This document shows, one piece after another, positions 14,950 to 64,000 of a stretch of 64,000 bases of DNA (position 1 is the stretch's first letter; every line of letters begins with the position of its first letter). The DNA lies in NCBI RefSeq assembly GCF_032854445.1, contig NW_027017972.1:124001-188000 (forward strand), in the 5' to 3' direction. Both the position numbers and the translations under genes were made by a program. This stretch comes from Liolophura sinensis. Its lineage: Eukaryota; Mollusca; Polyplacophora; Chitonida; Chitonidae. A model generated the notes under the pieces. It searched no databases, was not told the DNA's origin, and saw nothing but the letters and a program-made list of their open reading frames with translations.

Positions 14950-15881
14950 TACTTGATCACTCGTCAGCTTCGATTTCAGATGATCAAACGTTTTTTGATG
15001 TTCTGATGTTCACGACCATGTAGATTTATTTCTGGCCAGATCTTGAAGCGGGGCGGTAATTGTACTGTGGTCGGAAATGAACTGAGCAACGTAGTTTGTG
15101 AGGCCTAGAAAACTGCGAAGGTTTGGAGACGTTTTCTGGCTCGCGAGTGTTTTGAATCGAAAACACTTTGGATTCTGTCGGGGAAATTCCCTTCGCCCAA
15201 ATAACGTGACCCATGAAAATCAATTCACTTGCACCGAAGATTCATTTGTCCTTGTTCAAAATCAAACCGGAAGCACGCACTTTGTTGAAAACTGCGCGTA
15301 AACGGGCATCGTGTTCGTCGCGTGTAGATCCGAAAACTATGATGTCATCGGAGAGAATTCGCGCGCCTTCGCATGTCGGCTATGATTTGTTGGATACAGT
15401 GTTGATAGCATTCTGATGCACTTTTCAAACCGAACATAAGGCGTTTGTAGCGAAAAAGACCACGTTGTGTGACAAAGGTGGTTATCTCGCGAGATTACGG
15501 GGCAAGTTCGAATTGATGGTAGCCATCTTCAATTCGAGCTTCGAAAAGCTTCGCGCCGTGCATGTCTTGTATTACCTCATCCACGGTGGGAAATGGGTGT
15601 CTCTCGCGCATCACGGCACGGTTCGCACTGCGCATGTCTACACATATACGCTGAATGCTGTGTCGAAAGATGCGGGAAGGTCCTCTTCGATTTCCTCGGT
15701 GAGCGTATCCAAAATTTCTTGAACAGTAGGTCCACTAAGATGAAGCAGAAGTGCTCTCTTCTGCATGTTGTATGTAACACAAGACGCGTCGAGGTAGTAT
15801 CTGAATGATTTGGTCCATGTGTCCCATCGTTGTGCAACACCATTAGTACGTGGGTCAAATGCTTGAATTGGAGAACGCCAT

Positions 15882-34808: not shown

Positions 34809-37800
34809 ATGGCGCTTCAAGTAATAAATCTTGGTGTCAGAACATTTCGTGGACCATTTTCAGCATATTGTCAAGTATGTATTGTTATGTCCCCGTTATT
34901 TAAACTGATTGGCGTTTTCTTCGTGGATCTAAATGCCGTGCCATCATCTTGTTAGGAAGGCTTGTATGTACCATGCCACGAAAATCGAACCACGCATGGT
35001 GTCGCTTAGTTCAATTAAATTAAACGTTGAGGTCTTTAAGAAATTGTTGAAAATATACATCAACGTTTAATTTATTTGAACTAGATGTCATTGTCTGTTG
35101 TGCTAGTCCCTTTAGACGAGCTGCTATTCGGAAATCTCTACATAATTCTTTAGACTAAATTAATTCAAGAGGTACAGTAGCTCTGAATTATTTGACACAA
35201 AAGCTATAAAATCTTTGACTGTTTGGTGGGATAGAAGTAGCCCACCTGACTACAGAAACCCTTGTCTTAAGTGCAGCCAGGGGTGGGTGGAGCTGTGGGA
35301 CTCTTTCTAATTACCCGCCAATTCAGTTTTATTTGAGACTATAAGACTGACACTGATGCTGCATACATGTAGTGAGGAAAATCATACTAATTATGAATCT
35401 TCAACTTAAGACAAAATTTTGTGGTGGAAAGGCCAATTAAGACAAAGATTAATTAGGGCTAATTAAGGATTTATTTGACATAAAACCTAAAACATTGAAA
35501 CCAGATATAAAATGTTGAGCATGGTCTAAATATCAAGAATCACCAACTCACCAACTTAAGACAAGGTTATGGGGTAGAAAGGTCACTTAAGAGTCAAAGG
35601 TCAGTTTGCACTGAATTACCTTTGATTCTACTGTAACTGACATACGTGTTGAACCTGCAGTTCTGAACATGGAAAATGTAGTTTGATCCCTTCATCCATA
35701 ATCACCTACTAAAGACCAACTTATGTGGTGGAAAAGTGATTTAAGATAAGGTCAAAAGTCAGTTGACATCAAATGACCTTTTCATGTTAAAGTTGGGATT
35801 CTGCCTCCATGCTTGCCGTGAAGCGATGATGTCATTTTGTACTGGTATGTCACTCAGTTGTCGTAATGACCTAACTTTAAAACTGTGTATTGACATAGAA
35901 CCTATAAAACTTGCAACTGGTGGAAAATGTATGGTTTGATCTTTATTAGTAATCACCGACCTAAGACGAGATTATGTGGTGGAAAGGTCACATAAGACAA
36001 GGTCAAAGGTCAACTGCACTGAATGACATTATTACATTACATTATTTGACGTAGATGTTGGAGCTGCAGAACTGTAAACTAGTGGAACATGTAGACGTTG
36101 ATTTCTTCATTAATAATGGCCTGCTTAAAGTTCTAGTCCAGAGGAATTACATGTCCATAAAAAGTAAAAGTGAGTATAGTTAAAGTGAATAGGTTAAAAA
36201 GTTGAGTTTTTGAAACTTAAATGTTTTCTGTACTGTGTTTTATCAACTTAATGATTTGCCGCAAAACCCATTGGTGCGGTTGCCCCGGACTTCATGATGT
36301 GACAAATAGACATATCAGTTCGTTAGTCATATAGTCAACAGTAGAGGCAAGTGATAGACGTGCCAAAACACGACATATTTAAAACATAAGATCGATAAGA
36401 CTGAGCTATGCGAAGATAGGCATGTACCCTCATGTACCCTCAAACTTTTTTTTAGAAACTTTTTATTAATGTATGACTCTCACTTATTTTCATGCACTCA
36501 AGTCATTTTATTTGCCCATACTTGTGAAGTGCAGATTGGAGAGTAAATCACACACACTGAGAAGCAGGATTGTACCATAGAGGCATATTGGTCACATCCA
36601 TACAGTACATGTATGGTAGACATTTTTTGCCATGTTTTAGCCTTACTTTTTAAGTGATATTCACTCTCTGACCATGTGAATGATGATGCCATGGTAATCC
36701 GTCTTTCTTGTTTTCATTTTTTTCTTTAATGCTTGGCTTCATTCATGCTTTTTTCCAGTGAAAATCAGCTTTGAAAGCCCGAATTGGAGGTGGGTGATAA
36801 TGATCAGCTGTTATTCAAGTAACTAAATAGTTATTGAATGCTTTTATCATGTAACCAGACCCAAGCAATGTTTAAGGAGAGGGGTGGAAATTAATGTCAG
36901 TGTCCCAAAAATTCGAAGAATTTGGACAAATTAATTGTGCTTTGTCCTATGTGTCTTTACTGACAAATTATCTGTCTTGTGCTTTGTCCTATGTGTCTTT
37001 ACTGACAAATTATCTGTCTTGTGCTTTGTCCTATGTGTCTTTACTGACAAATTATCTGTCTTGTGCTTTGTCCTATGTGTCTTTACTGACAAATTATCTG
37101 TCTTGCAGAATCTACCAGCTATTCAGGCGGTGAGACATCTGAAGGTAGAAGATTTTGATCAGGAGAAATATGAGAAGCGAGTTCATCCCGAAACACCACA
37201 ATACCCACAAGAGTATAGCCTTGAACCAGCAAAAGGAAAGATATATGACAAGAAGCCGTTCAAGATGACCTTGACAGCAGGGAAGAAGTACTCCTGGTGC
37301 ACATGTGGAACAAGTAAAAACCAGGTAAGGCCATCATTAAAAAATTGGTTCATTTGCTTTTCTTAATGTTTTTATTAAACCTTTGGTAGAGTTTTTGATA
37401 TTATATACATCTTTCATATCGTATCTTTTTTGTTAGTCAGAATGAAAAAGAAAAGGTTGACTCTACCAGCCTACCTTATTTTTTCTGACAAGTAAAAATA
37501 GGTGCTAGGTGCAACAAAGAAGTTTTTAAGCATGGTATAACAGCATGATTCTTTCATTAACTGAATGCCGTGCTGTCTTAATTGTTTCCTTTTTTGGTCA
37601 ATTGACATTCTTGTAACAATTTTTGGAAAAATGTAGTAAACTATTGCAGTGCTTTGAATAAATGAAGATTTTTTGTGAATTACCCAGATTCCTCAGCCTT
37701 TTTGAATATACAAGAGCAACTTTCAGTGCCATTTATGTACCGTTACAATTAAATGTTGGAGGCACAACTACATTGGTTAGGTTGGCCGATTTCAGGGCTT

Positions 37801-40305
37801 CACATGTGCAAGAAGCATAATTTTATCAGCCTACACAGCATTATACTCCAAAATATGCTTGAGTGAACATCTTGCAAGTGTGCGAAAGGATTAAAGAATT
37901 ACAGGTGGTTTTTCCAGCACAGTGGAACTGAATTATATAAGTGAAATATTCTTGAGTATGGCATTAAAACTCTAATCCATTAATTGGACAGGAGAAACTG
38001 CTTTTGTGTATGTATAGGGTATAAGTATAACGTGTACATGACAGATGATGACAAGTTGGTTGACAGCCTAGTTGTTAAGGACGCTTGTTTGTCAGTCATT
38101 AGGAGTAAGGACTTATCAGGAGTGGGCTCAGTCTTGGCCTTTGTCTGGGGATATACATGTGAATTCTATCGCTATTATTGTTGGTGGGGCTAGGTTTTGT
38201 CATAGACTTGGACTGCTTGCTATGCGTTCAAGTCTGGCTCATGCAGATTTACTCTCTGGTCGTATGTGGGAAGGTCTGTCAGCCACATGCAGATGGCAGT
38301 GGTTTTCCCCCTGGGTTGTGCCTGGTTTCCTTCCACCACAATGTGGTTCCCCATCATATACATGTACCCAATTCCTCAGTGCTTTCGCATATGTTAAAAC
38401 AACTTTCATTGCAATTTATGCACATTTTGATTTTGATTTTGGAGACAAAACTACATTGACCGGTCCCGATAGCACAGTTGGTAGAGCGTCTGTTTCGGGA
38501 GCTGTAGATCCAGGGTCAATCCTGGGTAGAGTCACACCTAAGACTTTAAAAGAGGAAGTTGTAACTCCCTTGCTTGGCATTTAACATAAAGGGGATAGTG
38601 CAGTGACTGGTTGACATCAGTTTAATGGCTCAGGTATTGTGTATGTGTATTACATACACTCTAAGGACTCCTTCGTCATCATATGACTGAAAAATTGTTA
38701 AGTACGAGGTTAATCCCCAAGCTCTCACTCACACACTCACTCAAAACTACATTGGTTGAATTGACCAGTTTCAGGGCTTCACAAAAAGTATAATTTTATC
38801 AGCCAACACAGAAAAATGCATTCGGAATGTGCTGGATTAAACACCTTGCAAACATGCGAAAAGGTTGAAGAATTACAGTAATTGAAATATTCATGTGTAT
38901 GGCATGAAACACCAGTCAAATAAATGAATACTATATACTGGGTATATAAATGAAATTTTCTGGCGTACAATATAAAACACCAATCAAATAAATGGAGTGA
39001 GTGCTTGGGGTTTAACGTCGTACTCAACAATTTTTCATTAAGGAATCATTAGGGTGCATGCACGTGTAATGTGCCTCCTTGTTGCAGGACGGATTTCCAC
39101 CGCTCTTTTATTTAGTGCTGCTTCACTGAGACAACTTACCGAAGGCAAGTAAGCCGCCCCGCCCGAGCCATTATACTGATATGGGTCAACCAGTCGTTGC
39201 ACTATCCCCTTCATGCTGAACGCCAAGCGAGGAAGTTACAACTTCCTCTTTTAAAGTCTTAGGTGTGACTTGATCAAGGATTGATCCTGGATCTACCGAT
39301 CTCGAAGCGGACACTCTACTCAAATAAATGAATACTATATACTGGGTATATAAATGAAATATTCTTGTGTACGGCATAAAACACCAGTCAAATAAATGAA
39401 TACTATATACTGGGTATATAAGTGAAACATTTTTGTGTACGGCATAAAACACCAATCAAATAAATGAATACTATATACTGGGTATATAAGTGAAATATTC
39501 TTGTGTGCGGCATAAAACACCAGTCAAATAAATGAATACTATATTCTGGGTATATAAGTGAAATATTCTTGTGTGCGGCAGAAAACACCAGTCAAATAAA
39601 TAAATACTATATACTGGGTATATAAGTGAAATATTCTTGTGTGCGGCATAAAACACCAGTCAAATAAATGAATGCTATATACTGGGTATATAAGTGAAAT
39701 ATTCTTGTGTGCGGCATAAAACACCAATCAAATAAATGAGTACTATATACTGGGTATATAAGTGAAATATTCTTGTGTGCGGCATAAAACACCAGTCAAA
39801 TAAATAAATACTATATACTGGGTATATAAGTGAAATATTCTTGTGTGCGGCATAAAACACCAGTCAAATAAATGAATACTATATTCTGGGTATATAAGTG
39901 AAATATTCTTGTGTGCGGCATAAAACACCAGTCAAATAAATGAATGCTATATACTGGGTATATAAGTGAAACATTCTCGTGTATGGCATAAAACACCAAT
40001 CAGATAAACGAATATTGCAGTAATTCAAGCCATGAAGTTAGTCTTATCAGTGTGTGATTGTTTTGAATAGCAAATTTCATCATTTTCTGTTTTTCCTCTT
40101 TCTTACCCAGCCTCTGTGTGATGGTAACCACAAGACAATCCGTGGCACATCTACAAAGAAAACATCTCCAAAGTTTGTACCATTGAGATTCACTGTGGAG
40201 GAAACTAAGGACTACTGGTTGTGTAATTGTAAGCAGACGAGCAATCGGCCGTTTTGTGATGGAACCCACAAACAAGAGGATATACAATCTGCAGTCAGAT
40301 CATAG
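34809..40305 (+). CDS. CISD3: CDGSH iron-sulfur domain-containing protein 3, three exons, complete
   Basis: CISD3 (MiNT) is a mitochondrial matrix protein with two CDGSH domains, each binding a [2Fe-2S] cluster by three Cys and one His. Exons are 34809-34874, 37109-37324 and 40111-40305; joins are GT-AG between whole codons. The product is 158 residues. The N-terminus (MALQVINLGVRTFRGPFSAY) is basic and lacks acids, fitting a mitochondrial presequence. The first cluster site is CTCGTSKNQPLCDGNH (residues 86-101, split by intron 2 just before Pro). The second is CNCKQTSNRPFCDGTH (residues 132-147). Both keep all ligands and the C-x-C-x2-S/T-x3-P-x-C-D-G-x-H pattern. Both introns end next to tandem arrays. 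The gene is head-to-head with SPAG6. Confidence 0.97.
35390..36130. repeat. Old degenerate tandem repeat, about 4 copies of 150-240 bp, in CISD3 intron 1
   Basis: Copies begin near 35402, 35553, 35712 and 35955 with variants of CTTAAGACAAGGTTATGTGG, followed by GAAAGGTCA...AAGACAAGGTCAAAGGTCA and then a region ending in TAATCACC. They differ at many sites. Confidence 0.65.
36936..37103 (+). repeat. 42-bp tandem repeat, 4 exact-looking copies, at the CISD3 exon 2 acceptor
   Basis: Units start at 36936, 36978, 37020 and 37062. Each contains TTTACTGAC, a good branch-point match, followed by TTATCTGTCTTG. Only the last unit runs into CAG, which is the exon 2 acceptor at 37106-37108. The period is divisible by three, which explains the open frames across it. 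Confidence 0.95.
37930..38365 (+). mobile_element. SINE family 1 tail fragment and separate family 1 body fragment
   Basis: Bases 37930-37985 match the family 1 3' end (AAGTGAAATATTCTTGAGTA). Bases 38196-38365 match the box-B-like region and body on the plus strand (GTTCAAGTCTGGCTCATGC, GTATGTGGGAAGGTCTGTC). Both lie in CISD3 intron 2. Confidence 0.75.
38455..38745 (+). mobile_element. SINE family 2, near full length
   Basis: The head GATAGCACAGTTGGTAGAGC (box A) and GGGTCAATCCTGGG (box B) are intact. The body follows with AAAAGAGGAAGTTGTAAC and GGGGATAGTGCAGTGACTGG. The 3' end is CATATGACTGAAAAATTG and a CACTCACTCA-like tail. A short internal part of the body is deleted. Confidence 0.9.
38880..40010. 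repeat. 68-bp tandem array derived from SINE family 1 3' end, about 10 copies plus 2, interrupted by a SINE
   Basis: Ten copies lie at 39310-40010 and about two at 38880-38997, with a family 2 SINE between them. Each unit contains GTGAAATATTCTTGTGTGCG and GCATAAAACACCAGTCAAAT followed by AAATGAATACTATATACTGG. The first 50 bases match the 3' end of SINE family 1, so the array is an amplified SINE tail. It ends about 100 bases before CISD3 exon 3. Confidence 0.93.
38996..39312 (-). mobile_element. SINE family 2 inserted into the 68-bp array
   Basis: Complete on the minus strand from the head region (GAGTGTCCGCTTCGAGATCG) to the tail (CCCCAAGCACTCAC). The array sequence TCAAATAAATG appears on both sides and fits an 11-bp target-site duplication, so the SINE is younger than the array's start. 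Confidence 0.9.
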
Positions 40306-45322: not shown

Positions 45323-45394
45323 CTCCCCGGCGGGGAATCGAACCCCGGTCTCCCGCGTGACAGGCGGGGATACTCACCACTATACTACCGAGGA
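45323..45394 (-). tRNA. tRNA-Asp (anticodon GTC)
   Basis: A 72-nt cloverleaf. The acceptor TCCTCGG pairs with CCGGGGA (one T-G wobble), with discriminator G. The D arm is GTATAGTGGTGAGTATC. The anticodon stem CCCGC/GCGGG encloses CTGTCAC with anticodon GTC. The T arm is CGGGG-TTCGATT-CCCCG. CCA is not encoded and there is no intron. Boxes A and B are intact, so it should be functional rather than a SINE head. Confidence 0.97.
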
Positions 45395-47990: not shown

Positions 47991-49049
47991 TAAGTTTATA
48001 CATACATGTACTTATATAAATAAGAATCGATTACTCATGATAATCATCTCCAAGAGTATACCATATTTAGCCACCACGATTATCCCATCGGTAAAGACTT
48101 AAAGGATATCAAACACTGCACTGATAAACCATTTGCTAGCAATAATCCAACCGTGAATTGAACTTTTGAACTGAGACGTCAAACGGACGTGCGCACCATG
48201 CCTGCTTCGTACTCACACATGAAGCAAGATGGATGCTGGTTGTTTGAAAGACAAACTGTTGGCAATGAAAGGACTAGAGATTATCTGTATATTTGAAGGT
48301 AAATACAAAAAGCAAAAGATAATAATTCTCAGTGAAAAGGCCGTTCAAAGGAGGGAAAATTTTCGTACAGCCTCATGTATCTTGTGCCTCTGAAGTTCAA
48401 GAATGAAACATGGCGAATGCTGGTTTGACTTCTCGAGTGAAAAGTTTCAATGGCTGGACTATTGTTAGCAGAGGGTGAGCGGTGAAGGTTTAGACATCTT
48501 TAAAACCCGAATAACTTGCTGATTCGATTCATCTCAAACTTCAGATTGGACTTGAACAGGGAAAGGAAGCGAACGTTTTTTGAGCAGTGGAAGACATACG
48601 GATACGTGTCGATCTGTATAGGTACATCGTACTAATGAGTTTGATGACCTATACACCATTATCCCCTTCCCAAAAGTCCCTCCGGTAAAGTGGCCATTTT
48701 CTGGATTGCTAAAAAAAAAAATAAAAAAAAAATAAAATACCTCGGAAAAAAATGAAAACAAGTGACAAAACAGAAAAGGTGCTGCCGTGAATACCTCTCT
48801 GCCAAAAGCAATTTCCAGGGCAAACCGTTCACGTTTGGGTAAGCATACATGCTGACATACAATGCACAGATTCCAGTACCACATACATGTCAAGGGAGAA
48901 CGCTTCCTGCCCGTTTTGTCCAATGAATATCTCTCTGAATACGACCAGATATATACCTTGAGCAACAAGGTCATGAACTCGAATCGAGGTGGTGGTTTTA
49001 ATCATCAGTCAAAAATACAAATGATGTTGGTGATGTTTTTAGTGGTCAC
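47991..49049. other. Probable 3' flank of the CARD gene; no separate gene seen
   Basis: A 146-codon minus-strand frame (48974-48534) lies just past the CARD gene stop. It includes a Phe-rich part encoded by an A-rich tract near 48711-48737. It looks like 3' UTR or spacer, not a gene. Confidence 0.45.
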
Positions 49050-52000
49050 CTAATCATCCCTGCCTTCGACCGATTTGCTCAGAGCCCCTTCCAGATCCTC
49101 TGATTGCTTCAGGTATTGGCAGAATACAGTATCCGTGGCATTTTGTATTGCTGTCAGCCAGACTTTGTAAATTCTTTTCATAAAATGGCAATCAGGGTCA
49201 ATACAGAAGCTATACTGATCCCTGGTACCCGAGGCCCCGTCAGATTTTTGGGTGGTATTTCTTAATTCATCATCCAACGATCTCGATTCAACGCAAAATA
49301 TCTGCTGCTTCTGTTTCTCTCCCAGGCCTAGACGTTGGTCTGCGGATAACTTCTCTGTGGTGAAATGTGCAACGTTTTGCTGCCTTTCAATGATCGTTTC
49401 TGGTACGGTCGGTCTTCCAGTGGAAAACGTCTGGGCAGTCGAATCAAAGTTCCGAATGGTGGTGTTTGCCAGACCTGTGCCAACAGATAGTCTTCCGCTT
49501 TCCATGACCATTGAGAAGAAGCTGCAGTTCGTTCTTCGTTCACCAGGTCTGGGAGACCTGGAATCGTAGAATCGCTTCGCTACACACCGACCCGTCCCAG
49601 TTCCACCATTTTCTGAACCACAGCCTTCCTCATGCTGTTGCCCATAGCAACTCTTTTCTTCCCCCTGACTGGCGGGCAGCTGTGCCACGGCTTCCTGAGA
49701 GTGCCCGGATTGGACTAAGCCTTCCACTTTGAAACCGCAATGCAGATTGGCTGAAAGGAGAGTAAGACCAATGTTGGATAGACGCGACAATATATATATA
49801 CATTCTGTGATTATTACACATTTTTTCATACCTGTACCTTCGATGAGAATTTTCTTAATTAAATTTCAACCGATAATAACATTCAACTGCCTGTATCAAT
49901 TTTTGACTGTATGTACTTTAAGTCTGGGACATTGGCCCTTATTCACGAAATTTCCATAGCAGTATATAGTCTGTTTATAATCAGCTAAAATTTATTTTGC
50001 CGACTACCGTAAGCAGGCTAAAGGAAATGGATAAAGCCATTCTGCAATAGCAAAGCTGTCTAATACTTTGTCGGCTCATCAACGTCTGCTATGTGCCATT
50101 GTTATGATTGAATCAAACTTAACAACTGTTAAATTAGTTTTAAAATATAAATAAGTTAAATTACTATGAATAAATAACAGAAAAAAATGATAATTTCTTA
50201 CTCACATTCATTTTGACAAAGTTTGTAAATGAACTCTGAGGGATAACCCACTCGAACGAAAGACGAATAGAAAGAACACCAGCGTTTTCGTGGCGTGTAA
50301 GCTTTAAAACGACTTTCATGTGCTGAAAGAATCTAATTTATTCATATTTTCAGCTCTATTCGTGCACCTCTTGCAGGGATTAAGGATTTCGGACCAAAAT
50401 TTCAAAATCTAACACAAAACACTTTAGTCAGATATGTTCTTTGTGAAAGGGACTGGATGAAATTGTTTGCCGGCTAACTGAGATAGCCACTGGTACCTGG
50501 AGATTCAAATATTTAAGTTTCCTCCTCAAACAAACTTGACTAACGTGATGCGTAGAAAATTCTTGCTTTAATTCCATTTAAATAAAAACGAATAGATAAA
50601 TACATTTTCCTATAATGTATGGTATACATACGGTCTATTACCTTGAATTCCTATTCCTCGTTTCTTCGAGAAAAAATTAAAAGCCAGGTTTCCAATGACA
50701 TTGTCTCCCTGCTGTGTTCTGGGGCTGGTGGCATTGTCTTCCTTGAGATCAGTCAAGTTGTTACCTGCAACAGTTGACAAACGAGATGTATAAGATAATT
50801 AAAGTTGTACAACGTAGCGAGTACATCCACAGCAGCGAAGACAATGTGATAATTGGCAAATAGTTACATGTAACCAGTGAAGCACGGCCTCTTTACGGTC
50901 AATTTACCTCAGTTAGGGTTTTATTCTAACTTTTTAAGTAACTGCTTAAATAGTAGCAAATTACACGCCCACTAGCACTATGGTTTAAACAGAATTAAGT
51001 ACGATAAAAATGAAGTGATGTAACTTGCTGTTTATTGGACGATGGTCACACATAAGCAGTGGAATGCTACCTGTCGTCAATTTACTCAGTTAAGGTTAAG
51101 ATCAGCAAAAACGGGCCATGTTGACTTGAGAGTTGTGTATAGTAACACACACAAATACTCCGCATGGCAAAGACAAAGGTCTTCGCTGGCTAAATTGTCT
51201 ATAGCGCAGGTTTCGTCGCATGCACCCAATGGGCCCTGGCCAATGGAGTGGAGGGATCGAAACAAGCTGTGGCTTCTACAGGACTTGTTGGTTTGAAGTG
51301 CATTGGTTCAGGTTATTACAATAAACCTGACTGCCGTTCTAAATATGCTCGGAGTACAGCGATAAAACAAACGAAACCAATTAATATATAAATTCTGACA
51401 CATATATACATGCATTCTGGTACAATCCACACACGACACATGCCTTACCAATTCACACTGAAACGATTTCGGATTTTTAACACAATGACTGTTATCAGAG
51501 TAATGTTAGAATATCTCGTTACATTTTACTCAAAATCCTCAACTCTACCACACACAGTGTGCATGTTTTCGCATATTAGAGGAATGATCTGCCTGGAACA
51601 GATTATTTTATGATTTCTGTAAAGTTCATATATGCCCCTATAGGTTTTAGTCTTCAATATCAAAAGAATTTTGTTTTCAAACAAGATCTAAAGTTACACT
51701 TAACTGGTCGAATTTGTTGAGGCTGGATTACATATATCCAACGTATTTGTTAGTCTTATAAATCTTTAATTATATTTGTGGTGAATTAATAGAATATGTG
51801 TGCTATCTTTCAAATAAAAATGTGTTGCAAGATAATAACAGAATACATTAATTTTAACATCATCTAGACAACAGGACTTTCGGTCCAAATTACAAGGCCA
51901 TGTTTTTGTGAGATAGGCCTATAGCAGGTGACTCGTTTTGATGTGCAGATGATTCATTTTAATTGATTGCATATGAACCACTGCGATGTACATATGATAG

Positions 52001-52726
52001 GGCTCACGGCGATACAAGATTTATGGGGACCTGTCAAACGCCGGGTAACAGGATGTTATTTTAATGACGTCAAATGTTCCTTTCCCTGCTCATCGTGATG
52101 ACGTCACATTAAAAACAGAACGACTTTAGAAACTGATAGTTGTAACATTGTATACGTTTCGCTACAATCCATTTTTGACACAACAATGGCTCGAAGCTCT
52201 GCTTCACACAAACGCCACCTCACAGGATTTAAAAATATGCTGCCACCCACAAAGCGACTTTAAAAGAAGCTGATATACAGATATGAAAGTTCTCACCGTC
52301 AACTAAACCCATTGAGGGTTCACCACTCCTCGATGGCTGTACCTCCACGCCCCTTGGGTCCGATGCTTCATCCGTGAGCTCTGCAGATTCATCCTGAATT
52401 CCCGGGAAAATATGCGAGAATTTCCCCTTAAATCTGCTCGGTACACATCCATACAGTTCTTGCGCTAATATCTGTCCACTGGAACTAGCTTTTACCACGG
52501 CCTCTACAAACCTTACAAAGGTGTCTGGGTATGACCTCAGGAGCACATCCACGAGTTTCCTGGCGCCCTCGATGTCGCCATCCTGTAGGCAGCTCTGTGT
52601 GATGCGTTGACGGTCCACGTCTGATATCGAGTCTCCCATATGGTCCAGGACAGTTCTAGGATTGATCTTCCTTTGGATTTCATATCGATTATTCTTTATT
52701 ATACTTTCGTGAAAATGTCGACTCAT
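49050..52726 (-). CDS. CARD-domain protein, three exons, 417 residues
   Basis: Exons are 52726-52297, 50764-50642 and 49750-49050. GT-AG joins with phase G|GT and G|CC give an uninterrupted 417-residue frame. Residues about 8-95 look like a death-fold CARD of the RIG-I/MDA5/MAVS type: INPRTVLDHM, DVDRQRITQSC, GARKLVDVLL, TFVRFVEAVVKAS and QILAQELYG fall where these CARDs have helices 2-6. No helicase, caspase or transmembrane segment follows. The rest is Ser/Gly/Gln-rich and probably disordered, ending in a possible helix (KRIYKVWLTAIQNA) and an acidic tail. An adaptor role in innate immune or cell-death signalling is inference. Further exons are unlikely because the frame closes with a stop and starts with Met. 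Confidence 0.8.
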
Positions 52727-53444
52727 TTTGCCCTTAAAGGGAATAAAAAAATTCTTTTTTTAAACTGATGTTTACAAGACGGCATGTCATATTGTTATAG
52801 TGGGTTAATCAATGGGTAAAGCTACGGTGGAAGAAAGAAACAACCTCACATCACCAGGAACGTGATACAACGCCTGGCGTAAAACTGAAACTGGGTTAGA
52901 ACAATTATTTACGTCTATACATACGATTGTTGGTTAAGGAAAAATATGATGCTTGTTATAGCGCTCCTTGTCACTCTAAAACAAAATGGAATCTCACGTA
53001 CAGACTATAGTGAATAGACATCGATAAATAAACGAGTATATAGTAGATTAATCGATGTTACTTAACAACAAACACTGAGTGTATGTAGCTCCATATTTTG
53101 CGGATACAACCGATGCGTGTATATACACGTACGTAAGCCCGGTTTCCTATACAGGGAAATCTTCGCCAATATACACATGCACAGTTATCGTAAACCATTA
53201 CCGCTAAAAACTTATATCCTTGTATATACTAACCGAGGTGGGAAGAGACGACCTACATCTGGTGGGAAGAGATGACCTATGTCTGGTGGGAAGAGATGAC
53301 CTACATCTAAGCTGGAGAGCACTACAGCCTACATGTACCCCTAGCTTTCTTTCATGTACCCCAGTGTTTAGCTGGTTAGGTACTCCATTCAGAGGAGTGT
53401 CTGTGTAATTCAACTTTAAACACAAATACAGATGTACTTTACAC
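52727..53444. other. No gene recognised; upstream of the CARD gene
   Basis: The CARD gene promoter should be in the first part. A short repeat of about 24 bp (GGTGGGAAGAGATGACCTA variants, three copies) lies at 53236-53310. No coding signal is seen. Confidence 0.5.
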
Positions 53445-53870
53445 GATGGAGGCCAGCATTATGGTAGGAGGAAACAGGGGCAGAGTTCGAGGAAAACCCA
53501 CGACCAGCCGCAGGTATTCTTAAAGGGAAAACCTTCTGAGCACCCTGCAGATGGTCTTGGGTTTACCCCGGGCACAGCCCGATTTCCTCCCACTATAATA
53601 CTGACCTCCGTCGTATGAGTGAAATATTCTAAATAATTACGGCGTAAAACACCAATGAAGTTTATAAATAAATAAATAAATAAATAAATAACCTTCCCAT
53701 GTACGCCACGACCATTCGCAGGTTGCTGCCAGGCCTTCCCATGTACGGCCGGAGAGGAAGCCTGTATGAGCTTGACTTAAACTTACAGCGACCGCATTGG
53801 TGACATGCTCCTGGGTCATTGCGCCGCGCTGGCGCCTTAACTACATCGGGTACGGAGGCCCGCAACACGA
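53445..53870. mobile_element. Nested SINE family 1: a plus-strand copy inside a minus-strand copy
   Basis: Bases 53445-53518 (minus) and 53690-53870 (minus) are two parts of one copy. Between them is a 5'-truncated plus-strand copy ending in a (TAAA)n tail near 53690. The sequence around CACGACCA..CGCAGG occurs on both sides of the insert, consistent with an old target-site duplication. Confidence 0.8.
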
Positions 53871-55317
53871 TTATTAGGCAGGACGAACTCTTTGTTTCTT
53901 ATACAGTATACCGCCATACACAGTATACTTATCGCTTTGCCCCGAGGAAGAGCGCTGGTGAGATCTTGCGGTCATACCATGTTGACGTTACTCAGCTTCC
54001 ATACATCATACACACATGAAGATTAGAAGCCTACAAAAGCCTACCTAACTATCTGATTCATTATATACTTGTAAATATATTTTAAGAGATACGCGATAAA
54101 AAGCTCAGATGTACATGTAGCTAATGCCTAGATTAGCATGTCATTATTTATTCATTACTGTATATAGGTCCGTGTTTCGCAGACTTTTTTTTAGTATAAA
54201 CTACTGTAAACTGTATGAATTTCGAATTAAATTTTATCGTATAAATATATACCAAGTTTTCACCTATACATTTACATGTATATACATTGATACTACACGT
54301 AAGGGATAAAAAAAAAACAGACAGGATTTCCTACAAAGATGAGAAATATACACCTATGTTAGATATTTGCTATTACTGGCCCGGCCTAAAACTCGGCTGC
54401 TACGGTACCCAGGTGTGTATAAATGATAACTGCATGAAACTGGACTGTTTAATCGTGGTACTCTGAATTAGTTATGGCACCCACAATGAAAACATTCGCT
54501 CGTGTCACTTAAATGTGTGGTTTGTAGGCTGGGTACATTTGACCCATATAACATCAACAGTTGCAATACAGGCCTAAATTAAATAGTGCCACAGAATCGA
54601 TTCTGTAGCCTGTCACACAAGCACATATATTACCATTCAGTCGACAAAATAAACCGATGTTCAACTTACACAATCGATCGGGGACAGTTCGGCAACACTT
54701 CCTTCTAGATGTAATGATGACGGCTATATGACGTCAGGTATCGGCAGACCAAAAGCTGCCAAATAATAATAATGTCGACCTACATGTACATTTTTTTTAT
54801 ATTCGATTCCTGGATTTTACTCTTATTTGAAACATTCAAAACGCTGTTGGTATATTTAAATACTTTGGATCGATCGATTTAAATACTTAGGGAATGGTGA
54901 TTGACATCTGTTTGGATTAGACATCATGGTTCAAGGGTACTAGCTATGTCCGTGCTCACATTTTGGGAAATTTTCAAAAAACATACATTTTGTTTCACTT
55001 TCGCATACCAGCATATATGAGTATACAGTAACATTGATCTGTTGTCCAGAGTTATTTCCCTTTAATATATAACATAATGGTCCTTTTAAAAAAAAATACC
55101 GCCACAGCCTGATCACTTTTGTTATTTTTTGCTTCTTTTATTCGGTTCGTATGTGCAGTAAATTATTTAAAATAACCTTTTTAAAAATTCATATTTAAGT
55201 ACAGTAATATAGATGAAAATATATGACGAAGTAAGTATAAAGGCCTTCATGTATACAGCGGCGTATGTCGGGTGTACATGTAGGCCTACATGTGTGTGGG
55301 CCCTACACTTTAAAACG
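53871..55317. other. No gene recognised
   Basis: AT-rich spacer with several TACATGTA stretches. No open frame with a known domain and no clear transposon. Confidence 0.5.
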
Positions 55318-55600
55318 GATGATGGAGCATCCGTGCAGGCCAAGGTGATTAGCGTGCCAGCGCGGCGCAATTACCCATGTAGAAGCCCCTCACCAATATG
55401 TTCGCTGTGAATTCAAGTTCAGCTCATACTGGGATCCTCTCCCACCGTATATAGGAAGGTCTCTCAGTAACCTGTTTATGGTCGTGAGTTTCTCCCAAGC
55501 TTTGGCCCGTTTCTTCCCAACATATAATGCTGGCTGCCGTAGTATAAGTAAAATATTCATGAGTACTGCGTAAAACACCATCCAAATAAATAAATATAAA
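55318..55600 (+). mobile_element. SINE family 1, diverged full-length copy
   Basis: Head (GTGCAGGCCAAGGTGATTAG), box-B-like GAATTCAAGTTCAGCTC, body and the 3' end GCGTAAAACACCATCCAAAT followed by AAATAAATA are all recognisable. Confidence 0.9.
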
Positions 55601-56024
55601 GTATGAACAAAAATAAGTAGGGCTATTTACTCCATAAAATAAACATTGTGATGAATTCAAGCTTATTTCTTATGTCACTAAGTAAAATATTGTATTTCCA
55701 TTCCACATATTATTCATTAAAGTAACAACCTAAAGAGTGATGTGAATTACCTCAATCAGATTATATGATAGGCCTACACATGCACTCAGCCGATATTTCA
55801 GTACTTTAGATATGCCGCTTTTACGTTGGCTTTAATTTTCGTAATTACTGTATGTCTACCTTTCAACAGGATTAAGGTAAGTTTCTTTTTTCCAAAGCAT
55901 AGGATTATTTATTGATTTAACTATGATTTTAACATTATGTGTATAAATTATTGGATGTAGGCGATGAGCCTGAATATATTATAGAGAGCTGTGTGAATGT
56001 AAAGATCACTGAAATAACGCTTTG
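55601..56024. other. Spacer, nothing recognised
   Basis: AT-rich sequence between a SINE and the 58-bp array; no coding or repeat signal was seen. Confidence 0.5.
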
Positions 56025-57479
56025 CGTAAACGCCTGATGACAGAGTACATAAAAGAACTGTGAGAAGGTACCGTAGTCATTTCGTAAACACCTGATGACA
56101 GAGTACATAAAAGAACTGTGAGAAGATACCGTAGTCATTTCGTAAACGCCTGATGACAGAGTACATAAAAGAACTGTGAGAAGGTTCCGTAGTCATTTCG
56201 TAAACACCTGATGACAGAGTACATAAAAGAACTGTGAGAAGGTACCGTAGTCATTTCGTAAACGCCTGATGACAGAGTACATAAAAGAACTGTGAGAAGG
56301 TACCGTAGTCATTTCGTAAACGCCTGATGACAGAGTACATAAAAGAACTGTGAGAAGATACCGTAGTCATTTCGTAAACGCCTGATGACAGAGTACATAA
56401 AAGAACTGTGAGAAGATACCGTAGTCATTTCGTAAACGCCTGATGACAGAGTACATAAAAGAACTGTGAGAAGATACCGTAGTCATTTCGTAAACGCCTG
56501 ATGACAGAGTACATAAAAGAACTGTGAGAAGGTACCGTAGTCATTTCGTAAACGCCTGATGACAGAGTACATAAAAGAACTGTGAGAAGGTACCGTAGTC
56601 ATTTCGTAAACACCTGATGACAGAGTACATAAAAGAGCTGTGAGAAGGTTCCGTAGTCATTTCGTAAACACCTGATGACAGAGTACATAAAAGAGCTGTG
56701 GGGGCCTCCGTGGCTCAGTTGGTTAGCGCGCTAGCGCAGCGTAATGACCCAGGAGTCTCTGTGAGAAGGTACCGTAGTCATTTCGTAAACGCCTGATGAC
56801 AGAGTACATAAAAGAACTGTGAGAAGGTACCGTAGTCATTTCGTAAACGCCTGATGACAGAGTACATAAAAGAACTGTGAGAAGGTTCCGTAGTCATTTC
56901 GTAAACGCCTGATGACAGAGTACATAAAAGAACTGTGAGAAGGTACCGTAGTCATTTCGTAAACGCCTGATGACAGAGTACATAAAAGAACTGTGAGAAG
57001 GTACCGTAGTCATTTCGTAAACGCCTGATGACAGAGTACATAAAAGAACTGTGAGAAGGTACCGTAGTCATTTCGTAAACGCCTGATGACAGAGTACATA
57101 AAAGAACTGTGAGAAGGTACCGTAGTCATTTCGTAAACGCCTGATGACAGAGTACATAAAAGAACTGTGAGAAGGTACCGTAGTCATTTCGTAAACGCCT
57201 GATGACAGAGTACATAAAAGAACTGTGAGAAGGTACCGTAGTCATTTCGTAAACGCCTGATGACAGAGTACATAAAAGAACTGTGAGAAGGTACCGTAGT
57301 CATTTCGTAAACGCCTGATGACAGAGTACATAAAAGAACTGTGAGAAGGTACCGTAGTCATTTCGTAAACGCCTGATGACAGAGTACATAAAAGAACTGT
57401 GAGAAGGTACCGTAGTCATTTCGTAAACGCCTGATGACAGAGTACATAAAAGAACTGTGAGAAGGTACCGTAGTCATTC
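56025..57479. repeat. 58-bp satellite array, about 24 copies
   Basis: The unit contains GGTACCGTAGTCATTTCGTA, AACGCCTGATGACAGAGTAC and ATAAAAGAACTGTGAGAA. Copies are nearly identical; the main variants are GGTACC/GATACC/GGTTCC and AACGCC/AACACC. A SINE head interrupts the array at 56701-56758. Confidence 0.97.
56701..56758 (+). mobile_element. 3'-truncated SINE family 1 head inside the 58-bp array
   Basis: It starts exactly at the family 1 5' end (GGGGCCTCCGTGGCTCAGTT) and stops after CCCAGGAGTCT, before box B. CTGTG stands on both sides (56696-56700 and 56759-56763). Confidence 0.93.
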
Positions 57480-57949
57480 AATAACCGAGTAATATTTACC
57501 GTACCTTAAGCACCATATGACAAAATAGTGTAAATTACCTCGGCGCTCCTATATTATTAAACGATCTGTTCATTCTTTAGCGGCTTGTAACAGATAGAAA
57601 CTTCTTGGGAATATATCTAGTCCTTAGTAATTCAAACATTGGACACGTCATTATAAAATGAAGCTTTTTTTTTCAGAAACACCGCAGTGTTCGATTCTCC
57701 CACGGGATCTTCTTAAATCTCCCTGAGTGAACGGTTAATCTAGCTGTAGCAACTCGTACCCTTGATATGTCTCGTACAAACTAACTTAAACACAAAATAG
57801 GTAAAGTGTAATTCAGTTCGCAAATCGGTTTTCTAAATCTCGGTATTCTTTATATTGAATACTTTCATTCAAATGTCCTATAAGTTTCTGAGTGCAAGTG
57901 TCCTTGATTCATCCCAAGAGGACTCAGACTCAAGCTATAAAACTTTGAC

Positions 57950-58200
57950 AAACGGTTAATTGTGATTAATATCAGCAGAATTTTGAACGATGTTGAGGTT
58001 ATCAAAGCTCTATCCAATCATTTCTCAGCAAAAACACAGAAAGGTAAAAAAAGCATCCGCCAGCTAAGGCGAAAACCTCTTCCGCAGTTTAAATCAGTCG
58101 TGAGAAATTCAGCAGTACAAGATGCAGTTGAAGATCTTCATCATAAATATGTCATCGTCCCACCTGACAAAGTACCAAATAATATAATTTCTTGAAAGAT
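57950..58200 (+). pseudogene. Probable Penelope-like retroelement fragment
   Basis: The open frame includes AVEDLHHKYVIVPPDKVPNN and then II before a stop. It matches my recollection of the N-terminal RT region of Penelope-like elements (a VPADKAxNNIVFVCK-type motif). The rest of the element is absent. The family assignment rests on this one motif. Confidence 0.45.
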
Positions 58201-58462
58201 ATATTAAATTTTATTACAAATCGTTTGTATTTTCAAAGAATATTTTAGCTACACAAGGCCGTCGGAGTTTGTGGGTAGAGAATTATTTGGAAAAGCACCA
58301 GAAATTCTAAGTTTGGTTTATGTTTTACACAAGACACGTTCTTACCAAGAATTGGCACAAAAGCAGTTATTTTCTTAGGTGGGTTTTTAAAATTATTTTT
58401 AGCCCTTTATAACTTTATCTGGAATAATTCTACGATAGTTCATCACAGTTCATGATTTCACA
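58201..58462. other. Spacer, nothing recognised
   Basis: Short stretch between the Penelope-like fragment and the 66-bp array; no feature is supported. Confidence 0.5.
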
Positions 58463-59847
58463 GGAAACCGGACAGAGACCAAAGACACCCATGGCACCAG
58501 GGACAAGAAAAACCTCCTGTATGGTGGGGGAAACATGATAGAGGTCACAGACAACCATGGCACCAAGGACATGATAAACTTCCTGTCTGGTGGAGGAAAC
58601 CGGACAGATGTCACAGACAACCATGGCACCAAGGACATGACAAACCTCCTGTATGGTGAGGGGAAACCGGACAGATGTCACAGACAACCATGGCACCAAG
58701 GACATGACAAACCTCCTGTATGGTGAGGGGAAACCGGACAGATGTCACAGACAACCATGGCACCAAGGACATGACAAACCTCCTGTATGGTGAGGGTTAA
58801 CCGGACAGAGGTCACAGACAACCATGGCACCAAGGACATGACAAACTTCCTGTCTGGTGGAGTAAACAGGACAGATGTCACAGACAACCATGGCACCCAG
58901 GACATGAGAAATTTCCAGTATGGTGGAGGGAACTGGACAGAGGTCACAGACACCCATGGCACCAGGGACGTGACAAACCTCCTGTATGGTGAGGGGAAAC
59001 CGGACAGAGGTCACAGACAACAATGGCACCAGGGAAGTGACAAACCTCCTGTATGGTGAGGGGAAACCGGACAGAGGTCACAGACAACCATGGCACCAGG
59101 GACATGACAAACCTCCTGTATGGTGGGGGGAAACCGGACAAAGGTCATGAGCATGACACAAGGGACATGACAAACCTCCTGTAGGGTAAGAGAAACTGGA
59201 CAGAGGTCACAGACACCCATGGCCCTGGGGGCTGTTAAACCTTGTGTAGGGTAACAGAAGCCAGACAGAGGTCACAGATAACCATGGCACCAGGGACGTG
59301 ACAAACCTCCTGTTTGGTGGAGGGAACTGGACAGAGGTCACAGACAACCATGGCCCTGGGGGCTGTTAACCCTTGTGTAGGGTAACAGAAGCCAGGCAGA
59401 GGTCACAGATAACCATGGCACCAGGGACGTGACAAACCTCCTGTATGGTGGAGGGAAATGGACAGAGGTCACAGACACCCATGGCACCAGGGACGTGACA
59501 AACCTCCTGTACGGTGGAGGGAACTGGACAGAGGTCACAGACAACCATGGCACCAGGGACGTGACAAACCTCCTGTTTGGTGGTGGGAACTGGACAGAGG
59601 TCACAGACACCCATGGCACCAGGGACATGACAAACCTCCTGTATGGTGGGGGGAAACTGGACAAAGGTCATGACCATGACACAGGGGACATGACAAACCT
59701 CCTGTAGGGTAAGAGAAATTGGACAGAGGTCACAGACACCCATGGCCCTGGGGGCTGTTAACCCTTGTGTAGGGTAACAGAAGCCAGACAGAGGTCACAG
59801 ACACCCATGGCACCAGGGACGTGACAAACCTCCTGTATGGTGGGGGG
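58463..59847. repeat. 66-bp satellite array, about 21 copies
   Basis: The unit contains GGAAACCGGACAGAGGTCAC, ACAACCATGGCACCAGGGAC and ATGACAAACCTCCTGTATGG, with length variants of 64-67 bp. The period is a multiple of three, so long frames open on both strands; none is a gene. At 59221-59275, 59350-59400 and 59745-59790 a different unit variant (CCCTGGGGGCTGTTAACCC) recurs, showing a higher-order pattern. Confidence 0.95.
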
Positions 59848-61749
59848 CCCGAACATAAAGAAAACTGAGATGATATAAACTTGTGGGCAAAAATCACAGC
59901 TTTGAGAACAGAATGTTCTCCAAAGGCTGATTATGAGAGAGTAATTTTCATTTATTGAGCCAGCATATACAACATCAAAAGCAAGAAGAAATAAAATATA
60001 AAACAATTTCATAAAGATATCGACTATATTAAAAACATATGAGTAAAGTATCTATTAACACTATTTATCATGTTTATTGTAGAAAACAGCTAAATAGAGA
60101 AAAATTAGCTGTCCCACAATGATTTTAAACAAAAGCTTAATGTGTAGATCAGATAATGACGTGAAGACCACTTCTATTTATTTACATGCTTGCCTTGAAA
60201 TGGAAATCACATCCATCATTCTACTGTCTTGTCCACAGATGACAACCATCTTCTCTGGTATAAAACCAGATGTTGTATGTGAATAAGGCTACTTTTCACC
60301 ACTTAGTCTTGGTCAAGGTTTTCAACACATTTGAAACTGAACACAGTTTCCAGCACCAGAGGCTATAGGCTCGATTTGTTTTCATAGTCATTTATAGATG
60401 GCCGTAAGTGGGAAGGTCAGTCACCAACCTGCAGGTCGTGGGTTTCCCCCGGGCTCTGCCCAGTTTCCTCCCACCATAATGCTGACCGCCGTCATATAAG
60501 TGAAATATTCTTGAGTACGGCATAAAATACCAATCAAATAAATAAATAAATAAATCATTTACAGAAATAGTCATATAAGAATAAAAAAAAAAATCAAACA
60601 TTTGGACCAATATAATACAGTATAGCAGCCTTTATATTCACAACTTCATGCATAATATCCCTGTTTTAGCAGGCTCTAGTACGAGATAAATCAAGGATGA
60701 TAGAAAGGAAAGTTTGGTGACAATTTTACTGAAAAAGCTTCTCTTTGCAATACCACTTACAGAAGTGTGCAATTCTAATTTGATTACACTAAGCTGCCGA
60801 TTCGATATTCATCTTCATAAAGGCTGTTTGCACATACACACAAAGAAACAAAATGGGTGTCTTAAATGTTAGGAACAAACGTATCAAGTGTAAAGCAAAA
60901 TGGTACATCTATCTAACCTGATGATGAGGATCAAGAGTGCATTATTTTCAAAGTTTCTATTCCAATAATTCCTGCCAAAATCAACCTCTTTTATCTACAT
61001 TAGCACTAGCACACAATACAGAGCAAAACACCATTTATTTTTTAGGATAATTGCTTCCAAATTTCAACATGGCATCTGTCAGTCTTCATTTTCATGTTAA
61101 AGCCTGACTATTAAAACACAAATCCCCAACTAATTAGCCAATAAACTCATACCTTGAGTATAGTCCCATACCACAGTATAGTCCCGGATAAACAATTCTT
61201 CCCAATTATATATTCACCGCTTGCTATGGCAGTGCATCCATGATGGGATTTGATGAGACCATGCTGCGACAATGTCCAAAAATAAAATGTAATTTAAAAA
61301 AAAAATTTTAAAAATAAAAATAAATGTAATTTACAGTGAGAAATTGATTAACTGTTCTCTTTTTCCATTTCATCAAAATCCCAACAACTGACTAATTTTG
61401 ACTGTTTATAACATTGTGTGACTGCCTTTGTTGTCACCTCACACCTTGAGCATCTTTGATTGTACTCTCATATTTGAATTTACCTACTCAACTGCAATAG
61501 TTTTTAGTCTTGCCACAACCATGACAAGAAAGGATTTATGTGGGTGGCATCTAAAACCCTCATCTGGGTACAACCCTGATCTTCTACTCTGATAACATCT
61601 GCAGTTTATCCACAATGAGCACCATCAACAGAATCATTACAGCTTTCAGCATCACCATCATCAACTTCACCATTATCACAGCCTGTCCCAGCATCAACCA
61701 TAGCACCGTCATTAGCAGTTACATCATCATTATAACTTGCATCTTAATG
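59848..61749. other. No gene recognised; SINE family 1 3' half at 60395-60556
   Basis: The SINE piece (plus strand, from GGCCGTAAGTGGGAAGGTC to the (AAAT)n tail) is clear. The remainder is AT-rich spacer. The last part may be 3' UTR of the minus-strand gene on the right. Confidence 0.55.
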
Positions 61750-62545
61750 AATGCTGGCACCATCATGAACCCTGGCACCTTAATCACCCTGGGCACCATC
61801 ATTATCCCAGGCAGCATCATCACCCTGGGCACCATCATCATCCCAGGCAGCATCATCACCATGGGCACCATCATGAACCCTGGCACCTTAATCACCCTGG
61901 GCACCATCATCATCCCAGGCAGCATCATCACCCTGGGCACCATCATGAACCCTGGCACCTTAATCACCCTGGGCACCATCATTATCCCAGGCAGCATCAT
62001 CACCCTGGGCACCATCATTATCCCAGCCAGCATCATCACCCTGGGCACCATCATCATCCCAGGCAGCATCATCACCCTTGGCACCATCATAATCCCAGGC
62101 AGCATCATCACCCTGGGCACCATCATGAACCCTGGCACCTTAATCACCCTGGGCACCATCATCATCCCAGGCAGCATCATCACCCTGGGCACTATCATGA
62201 ACCCTGGCACCTTAATCACCCTGGGCACCACCATGAGCCCTGGCACCTTAATCACCCTGGGCACCATCATTATCCCAGGCAGCATCATCACCCTTGGCAC
62301 CATCATTATCCCAGGCGCCATCCTCACCATGGGCACCATCCTCACCCTGGGCACCAGGCTCACCCTGGGAACGATCCTCACCCTGGGCATCATCATCACC
62401 CTGGGAACGATCCTCACCCTGGGCACCATCATGAACCCTGGCACCTTCATCATCTCTGGCACGATCCTCACCGTGGGCACGATCCTCACCCTGGGCACCA
62501 TCATCACCCTGGGCACCATCATCACCCTGGGCACCTTTATTACCA
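61750..62545. repeat. 18-bp minisatellite, partly coding
   Basis: Units such as ATCACCCTGGGCACCATC alternate in 36-bp pairs. On the minus strand each unit encodes six residues (for example AQGDDG or AWDNDG). From 62545 down to 62248 it is the C-terminus of the minus-strand gene. Below 62248 the same array continues, but many units carry an in-frame TAA. Confidence 0.95.
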
Positions 62546-64000
62546 CTGCTATCCTCGTCATCAGCACTACAATCAGCAGCACTGTCTTCATCCTCACTAC
62601 ATGCACCGTCATCATTGCCACTGTACCTGCCGGTAACCCTTGTGCCTCCCACTACATCTTCACTCTGAATGACTCCTGTCTCATCTGTGGTGTCCACTGA
62701 CTCTGAACATGAGTCATATAGTCCTATTTTAGGCTGATACACATACAGTTCACGCCTTACCCCAAACCCACGACTATCCTGGCTCTTATCTTCTGAGGAC
62801 AAAGATTCCGCACTTGAAGTCAGATTTCCTGAAGCCTCTTTAGGTAAGTTTTCATTACCTTTGTGATCTTGACTGGACAAATTGTTAAGTATGGTAGAGC
62901 TAGACGCAGAACTGTGTGTGGATTGGAAATTGAAAGCAGTGGTAGCTTCACAGTCTGCAGTGGTGGAAGTTTGTGCATCTCTTGGTGATGAACCTGAGGC
63001 AGCGGTATTTGTAACTTCAGAGCTGGCATTAGTAGAAGTTTGTGCACCTCCTGGTGGTAAACTGGAAGCAGTAGTCTCTACAAGGTCACCACTGGGAGGC
63101 AAAGGTAGGGCAGTACCTACAAGTCCATTTCTGCTGGCATTAGAACTGTGCCCAGTGGCTGTACACATCCCAATTCTTTCAGACTCTTCTTGTATGTTCC
63201 TGAAACCTAATTCCTCTTCAGCACGTCGGTCCTCCTGGAGTCTTTGGGCCTCGACATCAGGACACTTCTCTGCCTGAAATCCTTCTGGATCCTCCACAGA
63301 GGGAATTGGTAATGCTTTTGTCTCACTGTCACACGATGCTGATATGTCTTCTTGCAGCCTTTCTGCTTCCAGACCAGGACCTTTCTCAGCTTGATGACCA
63401 TGAGTGTCGCTTTCTGCTTGGACACTTTCCCTTACAGATGCCCCTCCTGAGGGCAATGGGTTGGATTCCTGACCACTGATAGGACTTTGTGCAGAGATAT
63501 CCTCCCTAAAGTATTCAGCATCAATCCCTGGACTTTTCTCAGCTTGATGACCATGAGTGTCGCTTTCTGCTTGGACACTGCTCTTCTCTGCCCTTACAGA
63601 TGCCCCTCCTGAGGGCAATGGCTTGGATTCCTGACCACTGATAGGACTTTGTGCAGAGATATCCTCCCTAATGTATTCAGCATCAATCCCTGGACTTTTC
63701 TCAGCCTGTTGTCCATCAGTGTCACTCTGTGCTTGGACACCTCTAGGTAAGCTGCCTTGGCCTTCACTAGATTGACTGTGGTCACCACGACTGCTCAACT
63801 CAGGGTTCGTGCAAACTACTCTGTGAAGAGGAAAACTCTCAATTTGACTACTCGGCCGCTGGTCTCGTGCAGCAGATCCAGTGGGTCTACTAGCTCTGCT
63901 CCCCCTTTGCCATGTTTGCTCTGAACTGCTAGGAGTATCCTCTGTTTTCAAACAACTAGCCATTGCATTATTTGGTCGTAATGGAGGCTGCAAAACATTG
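62248..64000 (-). CDS. Repetitive, acidic, disordered protein; 3' part of a gene running off the right edge
   Basis: One uninterrupted frame of over 580 codons reaches to within a few bases of the window edge. TTTTGCAG at 63995-63988 could be a splice acceptor, so this is probably the last exon of a larger gene; the first internal Met is in NNAMASCLKT, which could instead be the start. The product is rich in Ser, Gln, Glu and Gly. It has three to four copies of a block of about 50 residues (with QAEKSPGIDAEYFREDISAQ and SPISGQESNPLPSGGASVR) at about 63760-63240. It ends in six-residue repeats (GAQGEDGAHGEDGAWDNDG). No folded domain, signal peptide or membrane segment is seen. I do not recognise the family. 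Confidence 0.72.
   Translation of the reverse strand, partial: NVLQPPLRPNNAMASCLKTEDTPSSSEQTWQRGSRASRPTGSAARDQRPSSQIESFPLHRVVCTNPELSSRGDHSQSSEGQGSLPRGVQAQSDTDGQQAEKSPGIDAEYIREDISAQSPISGQESKPLPSGGASVRAEKSSVQAESDTHGHQAEKSPGIDAEYFREDISAQSPISGQESNPLPSGGASVRESVQAESDTHGHQAEKGPGLEAERLQEDISASCDSETKALPIPSVEDPEGFQAEKCPDVEAQRLQEDRRAEEELGFRNIQEESERIGMCTATGHSSNASRNGLVGTALPLPPSGDLVETTASSLPPGGAQTSTNASSEVTNTAASGSSPRDAQTSTTADCEATTAFNFQSTHSSASSSTILNNLSSQDHKGNENLPKEASGNLTSSAESLSSEDKSQDSRGFGVRRELYVYQPKIGLYDSCSESVDTTDETGVIQSEDVVGGTRVTGRYSGNDDGACSEDEDSAADCSADDEDSSGNKGAQGDDGAQGDDGAQGEDRAHGEDRARDDEGARVHDGAQGEDRSQGDDDAQGEDRSQGEPGAQGEDGAHGEDGAWDNDGAKGDDAAWDNDGAQGD

Follow-up and report, generated by a model that had tools for sequence, protein, structure and literature searches.

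A gene on the minus strand of the window (the whole stretch of DNA analysed here, 64,000 nucleotides of the Liolophura sinensis genome, C33:124001-188000 in the assembly) encodes a predicted soluble, probably lineage-specific CARD protein, which belongs to a local CARD_2 family and carries a unique, probably disordered tail. We propose, with a probability of about 0.5, that this protein modulates signalling from RIG-I-like receptors (RLRs) to MAVS. Signalling by RLRs in invertebrates is poorly known; this genome holds RLRs, an adjoining CARD+Death gene that is probably MAVS-like and, separate from both, a duplicating family of predicted soluble CARD_2 proteins that are candidate regulators or alternative adaptors.

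To establish the gene itself, we rebuilt the coding sequence from three exons, obtaining 1254 nt with 0 internal stops and a product of 417 amino acids. The exons, the CARD and one possible further exon are as follows.

52297-52726, minus strand: exon 1, with the start codon at 52726 (context AAAATGA), encoding residues 1-143, which comprise the CARD and an acidic linker, and one further base
52484-52711, minus strand: CARD_2 domain (PF16739), residues 6-81, Pfam
50642-50764, minus strand: exon 2, 123 nt, phase 1-1, an unmatched linker
50206-50322, minus strand: possible additional exon of 117 nt in phase 1-1, with good splice sites in a splice-site scan
49050-49750, minus strand: exon 3, stop codon included, encoding the orphan C-terminal region (residues 184-417)

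All splice sites of the three-exon gene were canonical GT/AG (G/GTGAGA, TTGCAG/GTA, G/GTAATA and TTTCAG/CCA, the slash marking the exon boundary), and both introns (2/2) were in phase 1, beginning with the phase-1 donor of exon 1 (G/GTGAGA). The layout and coordinates given in the original prediction were right. The open frame that holds exon 3 runs for 271 codons. Sequence simulated at the same composition gives, per 57 kb, an expected 0.03 stop-free runs of at least 233 codons, and a run of 271 codons occurred in 0 of 60 such simulations; the exon 3 frame stayed open in only 2 of 20,000 shuffles matched to exon 3 composition. The gene is genuine, and the openness of exon 3 is far beyond chance.

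A simple splice-site scan recovered exon 2 and, at 50206-50322, one further internal exon with symmetric phases, which is in frame whether it is used or skipped and whose inclusion would give a protein of 456 amino acids. This predicted fourth exon, overlooked in the original prediction, is possible. It also bears on the idea that the gene model is truncated, the CARD exon being the 5'-terminal part of a longer transcript that encodes additional domains. That a symmetric, in-frame exon had already been missed speaks for this idea, as does the extent of the related A-type genes described below (about 15 kb). However, a stop codon closes exon 3, and the scan of positions 48000-52296 found no phase-1-1 exon beyond exon 2 and 50206-50322. 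We regard truncation as very improbable, although an unseen downstream exon could yet add a domain or an anchor.

Sequence comparisons strongly support the identification of the N-terminal domain as a RIG-I/MAVS-type CARD. The Pfam CARD_2 model matched residues 6-81 (E value 3.7e-12), scoring 46.5 bits on the whole protein and 49.1 bits on exon 1 alone against a cut-off of 28.2, and a scan of the genome with the same model returned C33:176484-176711 at 49.8 bits. The classical CARD model, by comparison, reached 13.6 bits on this domain, below its cut-off of 23.9. A single-sequence search of the PDB ranked RIG-I CARD 2 first, weakly (E value 0.0046). A profile built from the five CARDs of the array described below, and from these alone, found RIG-I CARDs at E value 2.9e-9 and, among CARD families, none besides RIG-I up to E value 1; a profile that included the RLR CARDs of this genome ranked RIG-I, MDA5, MAVS and APAF1, a ranking biased by those rows. 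In a phylogenetic tree, array and RLR CARDs together separated from the seven classical CARDs of the genome with support of 99/99, and the array CARDs formed a single clade against the RLR CARDs (96/98). The earlier suggestion that the CARD is closest to those of RIG-I, MDA5 and MAVS is therefore borne out, as is its placement at the N-terminus. Structural evidence was weaker: a single-sequence model without alignment placed helices where expected (mean pLDDT 57.7), with seven predicted between residues 3 and 106, at low confidence and past the end of the CARD_2 match at 81. The best structural matches of this model were the MAVS CARD filament (Z 4.8) and the RIG-I CARD (Z 4.3), values scarcely higher than those of unrelated folds, and a Foldseek search was uninformative, all hits having E values of at least 0.8. 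Because the Z values are not clear of unrelated folds, the death fold draws its support from sequence, and the model is no more than consistent with it.

Beyond this single CARD, we found no recognisable effector domain. CARD_2 was the sole Pfam match to the 417-residue protein, with neither a DExD/H helicase nor an RD domain detected, and no transmembrane segment was found, the highest 19-residue hydropathy (0.94) lying inside the CARD; the absence of helicase and anchor had been correctly read from the sequence. No Pfam match to a Death domain was present in exon 2, the possible exon at 50206-50322 or exon 3, and the possible exon aligned to the C-terminal halves of the Death-like exons described below no better than shuffles did. 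The tail had been described as a 320-residue region unlike known domains. Its novelty holds, with no relatives in Pfam or NCBIfam, while its length after the CARD is about 307-311 residues; a tail this long is atypical for a CARD-only protein. We dismissed a match to RPN7 (E value 0.11) as noise. Exon 3 occurs once in the 609-Mb assembly, and a viral origin was rejected, as neither exon 1 nor exon 3 had relatives in viral contigs. Structure prediction of the tail gave a pLDDT of 31.9, uninterpretable and without a confident fold, and the sequence is hydrophilic (GRAVY -0.75, pI 5.2); the tail is probably largely disordered.

Next, we compared the gene with the rest of the assembly. Contig C25 carries four more CARD exons of the same clade, with 48-96% identity to the window CARD, and much of the right-hand end of the window is closely similar to C25.

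C25:21195-21512: CARD exon of paralogue A2
C25:26770-27189: CARD exon of paralogue B', 96% identical to the window CARD at the protein level
C25:49817-50134: CARD exon of paralogue A1
C25:82872-83195: CARD exon of paralogue C
51096-64000 of the window: C25-like segment, matching C25 in pieces, from position 25852 on, at about 94-98% identity
50789-51041 of the window, within intron 1: dispersed repeat, present in at least 40 copies across the genome, most of them at 75-80% identity

By these comparisons, the gene is a member of a local, recently duplicating CARD_2 family. "Stand-alone", the word used for it originally, suits the protein, with its one CARD, and does not suit the gene, given its close paralogues on C25. 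The original prediction overlooked these paralogues as well as a neighbouring A-type gene that ends inside the window; its idea of a lineage-specific adaptor or regulator fits a local tandem family such as this one appears to be. The C25-like end of C33 may be either an allele or a duplicate, and substitutions between the near copies are too few for selection to be measured. We considered whether C33 is a redundant haplotig; an Armadillo-repeat gene on the same contig (29593-34108 of the window, minus strand), which we take to be SPAG6-like, is single-copy in the assembly, which argues against this. A satellite with a period of about 40 bp occupies C25:1-9388 and about 38-40.7 kb of that contig, flanking the CARD array, and C33 ends in it; this satellite is a likely reason that C25 and C33 are unplaced.

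Homology to C25 ends within intron 1, adjoining the dispersed repeat, so that exons 2 and 3 lie outside the C25-like segment; for the same reason, B' lacks counterparts of these two exons in the fetched sequence. This boundary can be read as a sign that the gene is a degenerating member of the array, a CARD exon duplicated beside unrelated sequence and now non-functional or barely expressed, and the position of the array in satellite-rich, unplaced contigs points the same way. Against decay stand three open exons out of three, good splice sites, compatible phases and an exon 3 that stays open far beyond chance, and we consider it improbable.

The paralogues differ from the window gene in what follows the CARD. 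A and C have a common downstream exon (E value 5e-5 between them) and a second common downstream exon at 44% identity, both in phase 1-1 in C. When C was aligned against A, 0 of 2000 shuffles reached the score, and the exons are homologous to each other. We hypothesize that each of these paired exons corresponds to one half of a Death domain. Searches of Pfam and the PDB with the downstream exons found no Death match, and their alignment to a true Death domain on contig C6 was modest, its score being reached by 24 of 5000 shuffles for C and 591 of 5000 for A; for these reasons we hold the Death-half reading as a hypothesis. Parts of the neighbouring A-type gene could be placed in and beside the window.

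62248-64000 of the window, minus strand: most of the terminal coding exon of the A-type gene, the whole exon encoding about 650 amino acids, the frame beginning at the equivalent of 64206 (C33:188206)
C33:188726-188866, just outside the window: Death-like C-half exon of the A-type gene

The terminal exon is rich in proline, serine and acidic residues, is of low complexity and follows the Death-like exon pair. It ends in a minisatellite that has a weak match to a collagen-repeat model.

We then located the RNA-sensing machinery of this genome. Contig C6 carries CARD_2 exons at 33.3135, 33.3353 and 33.3593 Mb, each with an RD domain 11-12 kb downstream. By their domain content these are three tandem RLR genes, and the genome thus has at least three; further RIG-I C-terminal (RD) domains were found on C10 and C473. 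Adjoining this cluster on the opposite strand, C6:33304902-33309508 encodes a CARD_2 domain (E value 1.6e-14) and a Death domain (E value 2.5e-15), its pieces joined by eye, and runs on into more than 500 low-complexity residues. It has the architecture of oyster MAVS except for the transmembrane segment, of which none was seen in the part obtained, and it is probably the MAVS-like gene of this animal.

These findings bear on whether the window protein might instead be a positive adaptor, with activated RLRs recruiting its CARD and its tail recruiting downstream proteins, as a divergent, soluble MAVS-like molecule. As A and C carry Death-like exons, members of the family may be adaptors, not decoys: both pair a CARD with two Death-half-like exons, the last exon of A is long and of low complexity, and oyster CgMAVS consists of CARD, Death and transmembrane (TM) regions and interacts with RLR CARDs (PMC5557890). 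The window member, however, has neither a recognised Death-like exon nor a membrane anchor, RLR CARDs were not bound by oyster MAVS from which the TM region was missing (PMC5557890), and C6 holds a better MAVS candidate. Since the C6 gene is present, the array is not required as the sole MAVS candidate of the genome, and a modulator role for the window protein is the simpler reading. We consider the adaptor unlikely. Competition or modulation is favoured since a Death-like exon and an anchor were not found in the window member.

RLRs activate MAVS through CARD-CARD assembly, and from the type of its CARD we infer both the partners of the window protein and its mechanism as a modulator. Its CARD would join or cap CARD assemblies in the RLR-MAVS pathway; with neither helicase nor anchor, the protein would act as a competitor or modulator, by decoy or co-nucleation, that limits or tunes filament formation, and the unique tail would determine partners, stability or location. 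Such capping or competition would be analogous to that of the primate CARD-only proteins CARD16, CARD17 and CARD18, which act as decoys for caspase-1 (PMC3775265). A more speculative idea, which we hold to be doubtful, is that the array recombines phase-1-bordered CARD exons with changing tails and so may produce lineage-specific, possibly haplotype-variable soluble regulators of RNA sensing.

Other features of the window include a Thaumatin-family exon at 9032-9523 on the plus strand (Pfam E value 1.5e-46), CDGSH iron-sulphur domain exons at 36935-37366 and 40216-40296 on the plus strand (Pfam E value 1e-7 for the latter), retrotransposon remains with reverse-transcriptase RNase H at 13350-15009 on the minus strand, with many related copies genome-wide, and a tRNA gene or tRNA-derived element at 45323-45394 on the minus strand (Rfam, 60.4 bits). 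Elsewhere in the assembly, C632 (15.2 kb) is a mitochondrial genome, and C99 carries seven COX1 copies at intervals of about 15.5 kb, which is probably a concatemer produced by assembly. The order of the mitochondrial genes resembles the arrangement in chitons, in other molluscs that branched early and in phoronids.

Finally, we set the window gene beside known systems. With the RIG-I-like receptors it shares a CARD of the same family by sequence and, as judged by eye against the RLR genes of the same genome, a CARD encoded by one exon whose 3' end is in phase 1; unlike them, the protein has one CARD and neither helicase nor RD domain. Like MAVS, as represented by CgMAVS and the C6 gene, it begins with a CARD_2 domain, after which comes a long region that looks unstructured, and the Death-like exons of its paralogues A and C extend the likeness to the array; unlike MAVS, it has no detected Death domain or transmembrane anchor, its tail is unrelated, and its CARD is not split by an intron, whereas that of the C6 gene is. 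Like the window protein as we read it, the primate CARD-only proteins are lineage-restricted, stand-alone CARDs that arose by gene duplication, but they have a caspase-1-type CARD, are small and do not carry a long tail. In Aplysia, where MAVS is seemingly missing, LOC101858480 and LOC101846979 encode RIG-I/MAVS-type CARD_2 domains (IPR031964) without the helicase and the RLR C-terminal domain (PMC9334734). The window gene resembles these as a mollusc CARD_2 protein lacking both domains, though one of the Aplysia genes has two CARDs; the comparison covered domain content. Helicase-less CARD_2 genes were thus already known from Aplysia, and grafting of N-terminal domains is known among lophotrochozoan RLRs (PMC8998645); the novelty here lies in a local array whose members have differing downstream exons, among them the window gene with its orphan tail.
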